From Candidatus Poribacteria bacterium (GTDB taxonomy: Bacteria > Abyssobacteria > SURF-5): a DNA stretch of 35,493 bases. Shown one piece after another: positions 506-6,736 of this stretch (its first letter is position 1; every line of letters begins with the position of its first letter). The notes beneath the pieces were generated by a model. That model had not been told where the DNA came from. It made no database searches and worked only from the letters and a program-made list of their open reading frames with translations. The stretch is taken from the NCBI GenBank assembly GCA_016215705.1, contig JACRIR010000031.1, positions 1 to 35,493 on the forward strand, read 5' to 3'. A program made the translations under genes and the position numbers.

Positions 506-516
506 GAGGAGTGACA

Positions 517-975
517 ATGGCTGATTCAGGGACGGCAGATGGCTGGTTGACCACTAAAGAGGCGGCAAAGTATCTCGGGGTGAGCGAGCCGACTATTTTC
601 CGTTGGATGCGGGAGGGCACGTTGAGTTTCTTTAAGCTCGGAGGGGCAACACGTTTCCGGCGTGAGAATCTCGACATGATCGCCCAGAAAGTGACCGGAA
701 AGAAAGAGGCCGAGCAGAGCATCGCCAGATGCTCGGTATGCGGACACGGCTTCTTGCTGTCGGGAGATGTGCGGTCGACCGGCAAAGTCTATTTCATGCC
801 AAAAAAAACCAAGTTCTTCGTTTGGAGTGAATCTGTGGTCGAGGTTTCGGCACTGGCTTGTCCGGTTTGTGGACACGTCGAGATGTTTGCTGATACTGCA
901 AAGATCGCCAAGTTGATGCGTCAGCAGGATTCAGAAGCGAATCGCAGAGCAAGAGAGGAGGATATTCCGGAATAG
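517..975 (+). CDS. BldC/excisionase-type HTH protein with two CxxC pairs
   Basis: A 152-aa protein. Residues 10-58 form a compact winged-helix of the MerR-like/excisionase (HTH_17) type: LTTKEAAKYLGVSEPTIFRW, then a wing with LGGATRFRR. The second half has CSVCG (Cys72, Cys75) and CPVCG (Cys115, Cys118), a likely zinc-ribbon pair. The frame also opens with GTG at 511, but the GGAG at 508-511 places ATG 517 at a correct distance, so I start there. It is probably a DNA-binding regulator rather than a true excisionase, because no integrase is present in the window. It leads a run of same-strand genes (next start 84 nt downstream) and lies directly behind the phased repeats. The HTH call is strong; the target and metal binding are inferred. 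Confidence 0.8.
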   Translation: MADSGTADGWLTTKEAAKYLGVSEPTIFRWMREGTLSFFKLGGATRFRRENLDMIAQKVTGKKEAEQSIARCSVCGHGFLLSGDVRSTGKVYFMPKKTKFFVWSESVVEVSALACPVCGHVEMFADTAKIAKLMRQQDSEANRRAREEDIPE

Positions 976-1059
976 CTGTGGCAGAGATTGGCCTGAGCTT
1001 TGTCGAAAGATCTATCTGGAAAGAACTGCGCTGATGTATTTGAAGATGAGGGACCGACG

Positions 1060-2049
1060 GTGGAAAACCCAAAGCTGAAAACCAGAGTCAGCGTGCTGGC
1101 CACAGTAAGCGCCTCATTGGTTCCGCTGTATTGTCTGGCGCTTATTGTCCTCGCGCCATATATGTCATGCACCCGGAGTTTTGTCACCATAGGACTTCCA
1201 ATCACAGCCCTTGTGGGGGTCGCGCTCAGCGTTGTCGCGTTGCGAAAAGTGCGGATGTCAAGAGGAAGATTGCTGGGAACTTTTCTTGCTGAATTCGGTA
1301 TTTTTCTCGACGTTCTAGTTCTCTTTCTGGCTCCCATCCTATATCTGGCGAACAGGTCCGACAGGGATTATGCAAGAAGGCCGGCTTGCATAAACAATCT
1401 GAAGCAACTCGGTTTGGTGCTCGGGTTATACGCCACGGAGAATGGCAACCGCTATCCGCCGATAGATGACGTCAAGAACAATTTCATTTTTGAGAGTGAT
1501 GCTATCTATCCGGAATACCTTACGGATAGTATGATTCTCGCCTGTCCGTCCAATCCAGAGACGAACCCTAAAGCCAACTTCCGGCTGCGTGATAACAAAA
1601 ATCATGCGAATTGCGATATCGTGACTGTTCATCCTGATTGCATCACGGATATGAGTTACTGCTATCTCGGATGGCTGGTGACAACGGATGAAGAAGCAGA
1701 AGCATTTTTCCGTGCGTACGACAATCTGGCTCCCAAGGATTATGAAGGAGATATCACTGTGCCTGAAAGAAAGGGTAATGGAGGCGGAAACGTGATCCAC
1801 CGGATTCGGGAAGGCGCCGAACGATTCATGAGAGACCCTTCAATAACCGCCCATGAAATTCCAATCATGTGGGACAAACCATCCGCCGACCCCGCGAATT
1901 TAAGTCACCTTCCGGCGGGTGGAAATGTCCTCTATCTAGACGGGCATGTCGAGTTCATCGCTTATCCGGGCAAATTACCGATGACTGAGACGATGGCGCG
2001 GTCGCTGGATGAAAGACCGCGCGCGCCGATCCCGGACTGTGAGGAATAG
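1060..2049 (+). CDS. Membrane-anchored H-X-DG surface protein, copy 1
   Basis: About 329 aa from GTG 1060, which has GAGGG 7 nt upstream. The frame stays open to TTG 1000, which has a poorer ribosome site. Residues 11-34, 41-61 and 71-96 are membrane segments, an anchor unlike a pilin. The rest is a soluble domain shared with the next two genes: an AC-NNL start, an ATENGNRYPP region, a DCITDMSYCYLGW block, GNGGGNVI, and near the C-terminus GGNVLYLDGHVEF. The last block is the H-X9-DG signature of prepilin-type processing-associated proteins in Planctomycetota and relatives, here with ten residues between His and DG. Four conserved cysteines could form disulfides outside the membrane. No enzymatic motif is visible. 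A role as an envelope or surface protein is inferred. Confidence 0.75.
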   Translation: MENPKLKTRVSVLATVSASLVPLYCLALIVLAPYMSCTRSFVTIGLPITALVGVALSVVALRKVRMSRGRLLGTFLAEFGIFLDVLVLFLAPILYLANRSDRDYARRPACINNLKQLGLVLGLYATENGNRYPPIDDVKNNFIFESDAIYPEYLTDSMILACPSNPETNPKANFRLRDNKNHANCDIVTVHPDCITDMSYCYLGWLVTTDEEAEAFFRAYDNLAPKDYEGDITVPERKGNGGGNVIHRIREGAERFMRDPSITAHEIPIMWDKPSADPANLSHLPAGGNVLYLDGHVEFIAYPGKLPMTETMARSLDERPRAPIPDCEE

Positions 2050-2092
2050 GAATTTGCGCTGAACCCATGACGAGCATTGGAGGTGAATGATA

Positions 2093-3023
2093 ATGGACGA
2101 ATTATTACTCATCAAGATGAAGAATCTGGCCTTAGGCGCTATTCCTTTATTCATGCTCGTCATCCTTCTCATGGCCATTGTTTATATAGATAGGAATCTC
2201 CGTTCTCGTCTAAAGTCCGGCAACAGGAAGGAAGCCTTAGTAGATACGGCGGTCAGTGCAATTGGTGTTATCCTTCTCATTCTTTCATTTCTCATACTGT
2301 TACTCGCTTTTCCACATCATCATGATCCGCCGAGGCGTCTTTACTGTGCGCAGAATATCAAGAAGATTTGGAAAGCGACCCAGGCCTACGCCGCTGATCA
2401 CGGAGGTCTTCTTCCGCCCCTTGATGAAACCAAGAACAACTTCATAATGAACGGCAATAGCCTATATCCTCATTATGTGAAAGACCCAATGCTATTTGCA
2501 TGTACATCTGACGCGGAGACTAACCCGAACAAGAATTTTCGGCTTGCCTCCACAGCGAATCACGAGAATTCCTCGCTTGGCGATCAGCATTGCGATTGCA
2601 TCACTGATATGAGCTTTTGCTACTTGGGTTGGATAGTCACGAGTCAAGAGGAAGCCGAGGCGTTTCTTGAAGCCTACGATAAAATGTCTCCGGAGGATTA
2701 CGACAAGGACATCATCGTGTCCGAGGGCAAGGGCAATGGGGGAGGGAATGTCATTTATTGGTTGCGGACCAATCTAAGTCAGTTGCCGGCTGACCTCAAG
2801 CTTGATCCCTCCTCGAGTGCCGGTGGTATGGGATAACCCGTCGGCGGACATCACCAATATCAGCCATGTTCCCGCCGGATGCAATGTGTTGTATTTGGAC
2901 GGACATGTCGATTTTTTTCGTCTTGAGAGAGAACCCGAAATCACTCCGTTTCCCGTGAGTTTCCCCTTTGGGAAAATGCTCGACGAGCGTCCACGCGCGC
3001 CCATACCGGATTGCGACGGATAA
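2093..3023 (+). pseudogene. H-X-DG surface protein, copy 2, frameshifted
   Basis: Paralogue of the genes on both sides. The start is ATG 2093, 6 nt after GGAGGTGA (2079-2086); ATG 2087 abuts the Shine-Dalgarno. The first frame stops at 2836 after NVIYWLRTN and runs out of homology near 2790. The homologous C-terminus (VVWDNPSAD, then GCNVLYLDGHVDF, ending PIPDCDG) continues in the +1 frame to 3023. A single inserted base, or two lost, between about 2775 and 2825 explains this. Joined, the product would be about 310 aa with two membrane segments (residues 11-31 and 51-72), again a different anchor from its neighbours. It could be a real pseudogene, an assembly error or, less likely, programmed frameshifting; I see no slippery heptamer. 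Confidence 0.7.
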
Positions 3024-3066: not shown

Positions 3067-3858
3067 GTGCGCAAAAGGGGATTGACCTTTGCCGATATAG
3101 GTGTGCTCCTTTTGGTTGTGGGCGTTCTAGCTGTTTTCGTATTTGTTCCCTTACATCCTCGGTATCGGAAAGCGTCTTTGAAGCGCGTGGCATGCGCTAA
3201 CAATCTATACCAAATGGGAATGGTATTGAAGCTATATGCAACAGAAAACAACGGACGCTTCCCATTTATTGATGCCACCAAAAACAACTTCAGCTTTGAA
3301 GCGAGCGCCATTTTCCCGGAATATCTGACGGATCATATGATCGTTGCTTGTCCCGCCAGTCCGAACTGGGACGCCAAAACAAATTCTCGATTACGGGCCA
3401 ATGTTTTCCATCCAGATTCTGCTGTGGGCGCTGTTCATCCTGATTGTTTCGTGGACATGGGTTATTGCTACCTTGGCTGGGTTGTCACAAGTGACGAGGA
3501 AGCAGATGTGTTCCTTGCGGCTTACGACAGACTTAGTCCCGAGAAGTATGACAACGACGTGGTGGTAGCCGAAGGCAGAGGCAATGGGGGCGGGAATGTG
3601 ATTCACCGAATACAGTCCGACAGTGCAAGAGTTCTGAACGATGTGTCCAAAAGCAATCACGATATTCCCGTGATTTGGGACAACCCTCGACAGATCAACC
3701 ATGAACAGATAGGCGGCAACGTGCTCTATTTAGATGGCCATGTCGAGTTCATCGCTTATCCGGGCAAATTCCCAATGACCGAGACGATGGCGCGATTGCT
3801 GGAGGAACGCCCGCGTGCGCCGATTCTGGACTACGACCTACCGGTGCCACAACCATAG
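3067..3858 (+). CDS. H-X-DG surface protein, copy 3, with prepilin-like N-terminus
   Basis: A 263-aa protein from GTG 3067, 6 nt after AAGGAGG (3055-3060); the frame opens further upstream without a better start. It begins RKRG/LTFADIGVLLLVVGVLAVF, which fits a type IV prepilin leader: short basic leader, Gly at -1, hydrophobic helix. Asp replaces the usual Glu at +5. The rest is the same domain as copies 1 and 2: ACANNLYQMG, HPDCFVDMGYCYLGW, GNGGGNVI and GGNVLYLDGHVEF. It is the only one of the three that looks like a substrate for prepilin peptidase. The stop codon overlaps the ribosome site of the following peptidase gene, so the two are probably co-translated. Confidence 0.8.
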   Translation: MRKRGLTFADIGVLLLVVGVLAVFVFVPLHPRYRKASLKRVACANNLYQMGMVLKLYATENNGRFPFIDATKNNFSFEASAIFPEYLTDHMIVACPASPNWDAKTNSRLRANVFHPDSAVGAVHPDCFVDMGYCYLGWVVTSDEEADVFLAAYDRLSPEKYDNDVVVAEGRGNGGGNVIHRIQSDSARVLNDVSKSNHDIPVIWDNPRQINHEQIGGNVLYLDGHVEFIAYPGKFPMTETMARLLEERPRAPILDYDLPVPQP

Positions 3859-3867
3859 GAGGAAAGC

Positions 3868-4698
3868 GTGATAACCTACTATTTGAGCGTGGTCGGGGTC
3901 ACTGGCGTGGCCTTGGTTGGAGTGTTTCTCGGGGTGGTCTTTTCGCGCCTTCGGAGGCCGTACTGGGCACTCGGGTATGCTGTGCCTTTCATAGTTATTG
4001 CCGCTGTGGCGGTCTCGCGGCGATGGCCCGCGTTCTCATTTGTTGCTCCGTTCTCGTATATCATGGCCGGCCGTACGGAATTTATCGCCCTGTCGCTGGC
4101 CTGTGCCATGATGCTGACAACGGTGCTTGGAAGACTCCCGCATAAGAGGCAGAAGATTGCGCTAGGCATGTTCATGGTCTTGGCTGTTGTGTGTCTTTCT
4201 GTCCTGCCTTTCCTGCTTCCGGTCTTTCTTCGAAACAAGCTATCCAAGCTCGAATCGAATTTCGATTCAGACGGCGTCTGCGTGCAAAGCAATCACTACA
4301 ACTGTGGTCCGGCCTCCGCTGTAACGGTGCTTCGGAGACTCGGGGTGCGTGCTGCCGAAGGCGAGATCGCCGTTCATTCGTATTCAAATCCCGTCTCCGG
4401 CACAGAGCCCGATTCGCTCTGCGCCGCCGTCAGTGAGCTATATGGGCAAGACGGAATATTCTCCGAACATCGGATATTCAGATCGGTTTCCGAATTGCGG
4501 TACAACGATTACGCCATAGTGTTGGTGAAGTACTCGCCTCTTGTCGACCATTATGCGGCTGTCCTCGTCGTGACCAAAGACAACATTGTGCTCGGCGACC
4601 CGCTTGACGGCAAAAGAACGCTTTCCCATGAAGAGTTCGAGAAGATTTGGCGGTTCTCAGGTATTGTGCTTCAACGAGCCGCTCGGCGAAGTTGGTGA
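3868..4698 (+). CDS. Membrane-anchored C39-type cysteine peptidase
   Basis: A 276-aa protein from GTG 3868 with AGGAGG at 3857-3862, overlapping the previous stop. Four hydrophobic segments (about 8-25, 33-50, 68-88 and 96-121) precede a papain-like domain with Gln140, Cys146 (QSNHYNCGPAS), His228 (VDHYAAV) and Asp244 (GDPLDG). These are the oxyanion Gln and the catalytic Cys-His-Asp of peptidase family C39. The basic loops suggest the peptidase domain faces the periplasm. There is no ABC transporter ATPase domain, so it is not a standard bacteriocin exporter. C39 enzymes usually cut after double glycine; the three upstream proteins share a GNGGGNVI motif, which makes them candidate substrates, but this is inference. 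Confidence 0.8.
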   Translation: MITYYLSVVGVTGVALVGVFLGVVFSRLRRPYWALGYAVPFIVIAAVAVSRRWPAFSFVAPFSYIMAGRTEFIALSLACAMMLTTVLGRLPHKRQKIALGMFMVLAVVCLSVLPFLLPVFLRNKLSKLESNFDSDGVCVQSNHYNCGPASAVTVLRRLGVRAAEGEIAVHSYSNPVSGTEPDSLCAAVSELYGQDGIFSEHRIFRSVSELRYNDYAIVLVKYSPLVDHYAAVLVVTKDNIVLGDPLDGKRTLSHEEFEKIWRFSGIVLQRAARRSW

Positions 4699-4995: not shown

Positions 4996-6402
4996 TCAAA
5001 CCCTCCGCTTTATCTCCGCATACTTCACCAATCCGTACATAGCTTTGGCGCAGTCCATGGGGTTGTCGAAGAAGGGGATGTGTTTGCCTTTGAAGATTTC
5101 GAAGACCGGGCCGGAGAGTTCGTGCTCGTTCGCGCAGACGACGGGCTTGCCGAACTTTTCCGGAATGGCGGCAATCGCCTCGGCGTTCTTGATGCGCTCT
5201 ACCATTTTATCCGCCGTCATTTTGCGATCGAATTTGCCGAGGTGCGGACTCAGAATCAACCCGTCTATGTAGTCCTGCCTCGCAACAGTTTCGATTATGT
5301 CAACATATGCCTTGTTGTTCTTGCGGGCGATGCAGTCGATGGGATTGACTGGAGGCGGCGCAAAGTCGCGCATGTGTCCGCGCAGTTCCGCTTGCGTTTC
5401 AACGCTCATTTCGGGCAGGTCCATACCCATCCGACCGCATGCCTCTGCGGCGGTCACGCAGAATCCGCCTGCTGCGGAAATGACCGCGATGCGGTTTCCT
5501 TTCGGCAGCGGTTGATAGCAGAGCGCCTCGGCCATATCGAATATTTCCATGAAGTCGTGCCAGCGAATCACACCCGCCTGGCGACAGGCGGCGTCGAAGA
5601 TGGCATCGTTGCCGACCATGGCTGCCGTGTGCGAGCGCGCGGCGCGCGCGGACGCTTGCGATGTGCCGGCTTTATAGACGAGGAGAGGTTTATTCGAGGC
5701 GACCCTGCGGGCGACCTCGAGGAATCGGCGTCCGTCGCCGACATCCTCGACGTAGCCGATGACCACGCGCGTGGTCGGATCGTCGCCCATATATTCGAGA
5801 ATGTCGTTGAAACTGACACATGCCTGATTTCCGCAACTGGCGAATTTGCTGATGCCGTAGCCGCGGCTCTGTGTCGCATTGTAGAGATATTCTCCGAGCG
5901 AGCCGCTTTGTGAGACAAACGAGATGGGGCCTTTTGGCGGAAGGTCCCAGAAGAGAGTGTTCACGTTTGCCTCGGAACTCCAAATCCCCCAACAGTTGGG
6001 GCCGATGAAATAGAAGCCTGCCTCGACTGCTTCCCGGGCTATTGTCTTTTGAAGCGCGGCCCCATCGGAGCTGACCTCGGCGAAACCTGCCGTGATTACA
6101 ATCCCGCCCTTTACATGTTTTCGGATGCATTCACTCAGAACGGCCGGCACGGCTGACGCATTCACGACTATGACGGCGAGGTCGATCCCATCGGGCGCGT
6201 CGGACAAGCTCGCATAACAGCGAACTCCCTGAACTTCGTTCTCGTTCGGATTGATAGGGTAGAGCGCGTTCCGGTAGCCGGCCGCCAGCATGTTGAACAT
6301 TGTGCTGTAACCCCATCGCTCCCTCTTGTTGCTTGCGCCAATGATTGCGACTGAACGGGGCTTGAATATTGCGTCCAGTGATTCTCTCATTCGGGTGTTC
6401 AT
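4996..6402 (-). CDS. ADP-forming acyl-CoA synthetase alpha-type subunit
   Basis: A 468-aa protein. Residues 9-105 are a CoA-binding Rossmann domain (KPRSVAIIGAS), followed by two succinyl-CoA-ligase-like domains. SHTAAM carries His258, the residue phosphorylated in the ADP-forming acetyl-CoA synthetase (ACD) alpha subunit. GPNCWG and SFVSQSGSLGEY are typical of the family. The reaction class is acyl-CoA + ADP + Pi to acid + CoA + ATP. The ATP-grasp beta subunit, either fused or encoded next door, is absent here, so it must act with a partner encoded elsewhere or have another role. GAGGAG lies about 10 nt upstream of the ATG. The acyl substrate cannot be read from the sequence. Confidence 0.85.
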   Translation of the reverse strand: MNTRMRESLDAIFKPRSVAIIGASNKRERWGYSTMFNMLAAGYRNALYPINPNENEVQGVRCYASLSDAPDGIDLAVIVVNASAVPAVLSECIRKHVKGGIVITAGFAEVSSDGAALQKTIAREAVEAGFYFIGPNCWGIWSSEANVNTLFWDLPPKGPISFVSQSGSLGEYLYNATQSRGYGISKFASCGNQACVSFNDILEYMGDDPTTRVVIGYVEDVGDGRRFLEVARRVASNKPLLVYKAGTSQASARAARSHTAAMVGNDAIFDAACRQAGVIRWHDFMEIFDMAEALCYQPLPKGNRIAVISAAGGFCVTAAEACGRMGMDLPEMSVETQAELRGHMRDFAPPPVNPIDCIARKNNKAYVDIIETVARQDYIDGLILSPHLGKFDRKMTADKMVERIKNAEAIAAIPEKFGKPVVCANEHELSGPVFEIFKGKHIPFFDNPMDCAKAMYGLVKYAEIKRRV

Positions 6403-6473
6403 TCAGTAGTCTCCTCGGATTGCTCGAAATACTTGGATGTTATTCTCACCCACGGGGGATTAGCTTTTCGATT

Positions 6474-6501
6474 GAGATTCTTCGCTTCGCTCAGAATGAC
6501 A
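6474..6501 (+). repeat. Dispersed repeat of the TTCGCTTCGCTCAGAATGACA type
   Basis: A short sequence familiar from many environmental bacterial genomes as a non-coding repeat. It is the only copy I see here. It lies between the acyl-CoA synthetase gene and the palindrome array. Confidence 0.4.
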
Positions 6502-6566
6502 GAGGAGCGACCAGGATAACATGTTTGGATTGCCTCATCTTCGACCTGCGACTCGCGGGTTGCGTC

Positions 6567-6736
6567 AATTCGAGGACGCGATGCGGCACTGTTGCCCCTA
6601 ATTCGGGGACGCGATGCGGCACTGTTGCCCCTTAATTCGGGGACACGATGCCGCACTGTTACCCCTAATTCGGGGACACGATGCGGCACTGTTGCCCCTA
6701 ATTCGGGGACACGATGTCGCATCGTGTCCCCGAATT
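6567..6736. repeat. Array of five AATTCGGGGACACGATG units ending in a perfect palindrome
   Basis: Units start at about 6567, 6600, 6634, 6667 and 6700 (33-34 bp each). Unit 5 (6700-6736) is a perfect palindrome: 17-bp arms AATTCGGGGACACGATG around TCG. Units 1-4 keep the left arm but end in CACTGTTGCCCCT or a close variant instead of the matching right arm. There are no unique spacers, so this is not a CRISPR. The array lies just downstream of the priA stop, where the last palindrome could act as a transcription terminator. Confidence 0.8.

Follow-up and report, generated by a model that had tools for sequence, protein, structure and literature searches.

The window, the whole stretch of 35,493 nucleotides analysed here, is one of the 270 contigs (C138) into which a 5.47-Mb genome (G000) is assembled. 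It carries a single-strand unit that runs from an HTH gene over three H-X-DG copies to the gene of a C39 peptidase, and the next long gene is convergent (Table 1). The HTH_17 gene is the first of a conserved cluster, as a 75% identical orthologue heads the cluster on contig C59 of G002, a genome of the same family.

Table 1. Features of the peptidase cluster and its surroundings in the window.
Feature	Position	Strand	Evidence or remark
Excisionase-type HTH_17 protein with C-terminal CxxC zinc-ribbon-like part	511..975	+	PF12728, E 3.9e-14
H-X-DG copy 1	1000..2049 (exact start codon uncertain)	+	PF07596, E 1e-5; TIGR04294, 19.2 bits, above cut-off
H-X-DG copy 2, N-terminal part	2087..2836	+	ORF; 40% identity to copy 3
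H-X-DG copy 2, C-terminal part, other frame	2814..3020	+	54% match to copy 3 residues 232-290; TIGR04294, 21.8 bits
H-X-DG copy 3	3067..3858	+	Shine-Dalgarno AAAGGAGG upstream of GTG; aligns with prepilin paralogs
Shine-Dalgarno of C39 gene	3857..3867	+	Sequence CCATAGGAGGAAAGCGTG; overlaps copy 3 stop codon
Membrane-anchored C39 cysteine peptidase	3868..4698	+	PF03412; catalytic residues invariant in 18/18 aligned sequences
Weak terminator-like stem 3' of C39 gene	4772..4786	+	Such stems are no commoner here than in shuffles

The peptidase gene starts with GTG and encodes a 276-aa product, of which residues 138-269 match Peptidase_C39 of Pfam above the curated cut-off (E 7.8e-10, 39.1 bits against 22). 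The same domain was retrieved in a genome-wide C39 search (G000:C138:4279-4674). Hydropathy analysis predicted four TM segments at residues 6-24, 32-50, 72-90 and 103-121, and the active-site residues were placed at Q140, C146, H228 and D244. A Pfam search of the protein returned no ATPase domain. NCBIfam exporter models matched through the C39 part alone, with about 20 bits against cut-offs of at least 500, and the protein does not have the fused ABC transmembrane and ATPase domains of such exporters. Thus, the description given by the sequence-only reading, a stand-alone four-helix C39 peptidase without ATPase, was confirmed. Profile comparison with PDB entries recovered C39 domains of the PCAT/ComA exporters and, with less strength, PeiR, an endoisopeptidase. 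An AlphaFold model of the C39 protein was unusable (pLDDT 47, from 2 sequences). The only other C39 domains in the window genome lie on contig C118, in a frame with YD/RHS-like repeats, and on C185, in a lipoprotein-like 228-aa frame. Frames of about 1570 aa that include a C39 domain were seen at L001 (G000:C118) and L047 (G001:C81); in L001 the YD/RHS-like repeats come after the C39 domain.

The three upstream proteins have the domain and the H-X-DG terminus in common with the DUF1559/H-X9-DG prepilin-like proteins (PF07596, TIGR04294), while copies 1 and 2 are polytopic instead of carrying a prepilin helix, and copy 3 has Asp for Glu at +5. In copy 1 (PF07596 score 26.2 bits), three TM helices replace the prepilin helix and precede the DUF1559/H-X9-DG domain with GKGNGGGNVI; the membrane part is DUF4190-like at a sub-threshold E of 0.0068. 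The N-terminal part of copy 2 combines two TM helices with a domain that contains GKGNGGGNVI. A frameshift near 2790-2814 ends its open frame early and leaves the H-X-DG end in another frame, which is either a pseudogene or real frameshift, or an assembly error. Copy 3 has one TM helix and a domain with GRGNGGGNVI, and its TIGR04294 score was 18.4 bits in hmmscan, just under 19, and 21.9 in the genome search. Its start is most likely the GTG behind the Shine-Dalgarno sequence and not TTG 2968. This start gives MRKRG^LTFAD, a prepilin-like N-terminus, whereas copies 1 and 2 lack the type IV prepilin start (short basic leader, G^[FL]T..E, hydrophobic helix). Five further contigs of the genome encode relatives of copy 3 (38-41% identical), and the ones whose N-terminus is intact are typical prepilins; no C39 gene was found near them in the stretches retrieved around them. 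The genome also encodes an A24 prepilin peptidase. Given these prepilin-type relatives and the A24 peptidase, copies 1-3 are pilin-derived proteins, two of which have swapped the prepilin helix for a membrane part of several helices. A literature search on H-X9-DG function yielded nothing useful. Another exchange of the prepilin helix was seen at L038 (G002:C42, 5528-7660, - strand), where the H-X-DG domain follows a long ankyrin-repeat array in a 710-aa frame.

The copy 3 stop codon (3856-3858) overlaps TAGGAGGA, and the GTG of the peptidase gene lies 9 nt past the stop; the ribosome site at the end of copy 3 had been noticed from the sequence before. Because the ribosome site of the peptidase overlaps this stop codon, translational coupling of copy 3 and the C39 gene is plausible.

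We then compared the cluster within the phylum, of which three genomes were sampled. On G002:C59 the order is HTH, H-X-DG copy 1, a second H-X-DG gene, a truncated membrane-part ORF and a C39 remnant. The orthologue of copy 1 is 72% identical and carries GKGNGGGNVI, and the second H-X-DG gene is without the motif. The remnant of about 100 aa matches about the last 50-80 residues of the peptidase and has no catalytic cysteine. We infer a single deletion in G002 that would have run from a third H-X-DG gene into C39, in which case the ancestral order would be that of the window. Since the G002 cluster is syntenic, with a C39 remnant and the motif kept, the linkage of C39 and H-X-DG genes is real and older than the window genome, yet local and dispensable. 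Two multi-TM proteins without Pfam match are encoded 3' of the remnant (L037, 2887-4857, - strand); they contain a short segment like the DUF1559 start (C..xL..xG..L.GYA) and are perhaps highly divergent members.

Outside the phylum, 17 homolog loci were analysed, namely L025, which is of a Planctomycetota genome and whose homolog is 43% identical, and 16 stretches that came from 15 genomes. Four TM segments were predicted in most of these homologs, and Gln140, Cys146, His228 and Asp244 were invariant in the window protein and all 17 of them. Because these sequences are otherwise little alike, the invariant residues argue for selection on catalysis. In none of the 17 loci did an H-X-DG gene adjoin the peptidase gene, as judged with our own family profile and with some contigs of only about 3 kb. 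This profile covers the divergent membrane-type copies that PF07596 misses. With PF07596 at 1e-5, 14 of the 15 peptidase-carrying genomes gave no match in a DUF1559 survey that spanned 35 genomes. A single DUF1559-type prepilin was located near a C39 homolog, about 4.8 kb off and on the opposite strand (L086). It was discounted as linkage, the genome having 41 DUF1559 matches in 3.3 Mb. The homolog neighbourhoods had no shared partner gene either, and a general linkage of C39 and H-X-DG genes was rejected after the 17 loci and the survey. A conserved neighbourhood, whose absence the sequence-only reading had named as counting against it, was hence not found outside the family. Its coupling of the peptidase to the H-X-DG genes holds as a positional one that was also present in the G002 ancestor, but not for other phyla, where the homologs are lone genes. 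The peptidase appears to belong to an uncharacterised subfamily whose genes are thinly spread over several phyla and stand alone there, and as far as we found, no function has been described for such solitary membrane C39 proteins. Directly upstream of the C39 homolog of G308 on L086, a secreted-looking protein is encoded (1908-2948, - strand) whose C-terminal half is papain/C39-like by eye.

The motif GNGGGNVI is indeed common to all three upstream copies, as claimed before. In the family alignment, however, GNGGGNVIHRI coincides with a stretch rich in glycine, G[SK]GNxxxxxxxRL or G[SK]GNxGGxxIxRL. This stretch reads GSGNARSSTVNRL in the prepilins of the window genome and GSGNAGGSAINRL, GSGNGGSSYIMRL, GSGSAGGNYHHRL and GKGNLGSNIIFRT in the same-family genome G001. 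No membrane C39 was found in G001, the sole C39 match lying within a 1569-aa frame. Since the glycine loop is also present in prepilins without a C39 neighbour, GNGGGNVI is an internal glycine loop of the domain, and its presence does not depend on the peptidase. None of the three adjacent genes encodes an N-terminal leader that ends in GG; GNGGG is internal, near residue 172 of the 263 in copy 3, and belongs to the family-wide loop. As a C39 cutting site, GNGGGNVI was rejected after the alignment of prepilin paralogs. The AlphaFold model of copy 3 (pLDDT 37, from 3 sequences) was too poor to judge burial of GNGGG.

C39 peptidases are regarded as cytosolic scissors of ABC exporters that cut at the leader end. 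The exporter C39 domains of PCAT, ComA and LahT share the catalytic domain and residues with the window peptidase, those of PCAT and ComA being its best profile relatives among solved structures. They are, however, fused to TM and ATPase domains, are cytosolic and cut after a leader GG, whereas the window peptidase has no ATPase and no GG leader substrate among its adjacent genes, and its domain is predicted to face outward. The loops that follow TM1 and TM3 are positively charged, and the N-terminus has no charge; following the positive-inside rule, the C39 domain should therefore lie outside the cytoplasm. The four N-terminal helices would anchor the peptidase and place the C39 domain there, Cys146, His228 and Asp244 would carry out catalysis with Gln140 as oxyanion residue, and the soluble domains of the pilin-derived H-X-DG proteins should face the same compartment.

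A non-cytosolic stand-alone C39 peptidase in a surface-protein operon is already known. FapD, encoded in the Fap amyloid operon of Pseudomonas, is a C39 peptidase of the periplasm; FapC secretion requires its active cysteine, and its target was left open (PMC5557850). Both proteins have a C39 fold, no ATPase of their own and the company of surface or secreted-protein genes, and the window peptidase would probably, like FapD, lie outside the cytoplasm. They differ in that FapD has a Sec signal peptide where the window peptidase has four predicted TM helices, and its partners are amyloid and pore proteins instead of pilin-like ones (PMC5557850). By score the window peptidase is not a FapD (NCBIfam NF058616, 15.9 against a cut-off of 330), nor is it a PCAT by architecture, yet it may work like FapD. 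The charge counts and one sub-threshold domain, on which the outward topology rests, lean toward a FapD-like extracytoplasmic placement; the domain is a PG_binding_1-like tail after C39 in the G328 homolog (E 1.8e-4, just under the cut-off). By analogy, the C39 domain would act on an envelope or secreted protein and not a cytosolic GG leader, and the GNGGGNVI loop is probably not the substrate. With moderate confidence, we thus read the protein as a solitary, membrane-anchored, probably outward-facing C39 cysteine peptidase that acts in a FapD-like manner on an envelope or secreted target and is loosely tied to the pilin-derived array. Against this reading speak the overlapping Shine-Dalgarno sequence and the C39 remnant kept in synteny in G002, which may point to a functional tie with the H-X-DG genes.

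A closer tie can be imagined in several ways. The C39 peptidase might cut the H-X-DG proteins encoded upstream, at GNGGGNVI or close to it, and free part of their outer domain. Their genes are adjacent with an overlapping Shine-Dalgarno sequence, both kinds of domain are predicted in the same compartment, the cluster order is partly kept in G002 and the motif is in all three copies. We nevertheless consider this very unlikely, as the internal motif coincides with the loop of prepilin paralogs that have no C39 neighbour, the 17 homologous loci lack adjoining H-X-DG genes, and in G002 copy 1 stays intact with its motif despite a dead peptidase. The dedicated processing system of the sequence-only reading, with a GGG substrate, is unsupported on the same grounds. 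Cleavage of the H-X-DG proteins elsewhere, for example at a membrane-proximal junction by a quality-control or shedding protease, would fit the one operon-like unit and the common inferred compartment. There is no sign of co-occurrence elsewhere, however, and two H-X-DG genes remain intact in G002 despite the C39 loss, which leaves this explanation unlikely. That the outward, membrane-tethered C39 specifically processes or releases the tandem pilin-derived set, in a maturation system confined to this lineage and lost, or on its way to being lost, in G002, seems to us quite unlikely.

A different target would be the cell wall, if the C39 fold acted on the peptides of peptidoglycan or on others of the envelope. 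The tail of the G328 homolog and the weak profile relationship to PeiR point that way; but such a tail is found in one homolog only and no wall-synthesis genes were seen next to the peptidase gene in the window, and we regard a wall hydrolase as improbable. The link to pilin-like genes matters less than the C39 subfamily itself. The gene marks a scattered group of solitary C39 peptidases that are anchored in the membrane, probably face outward and have their active site fully conserved; such a subfamily would extend the FapD precedent.

Elsewhere in the window, a short tandem repeat reading RHRVPELG... was noticed between two genes, in an ORF on the - strand (6399-6722).
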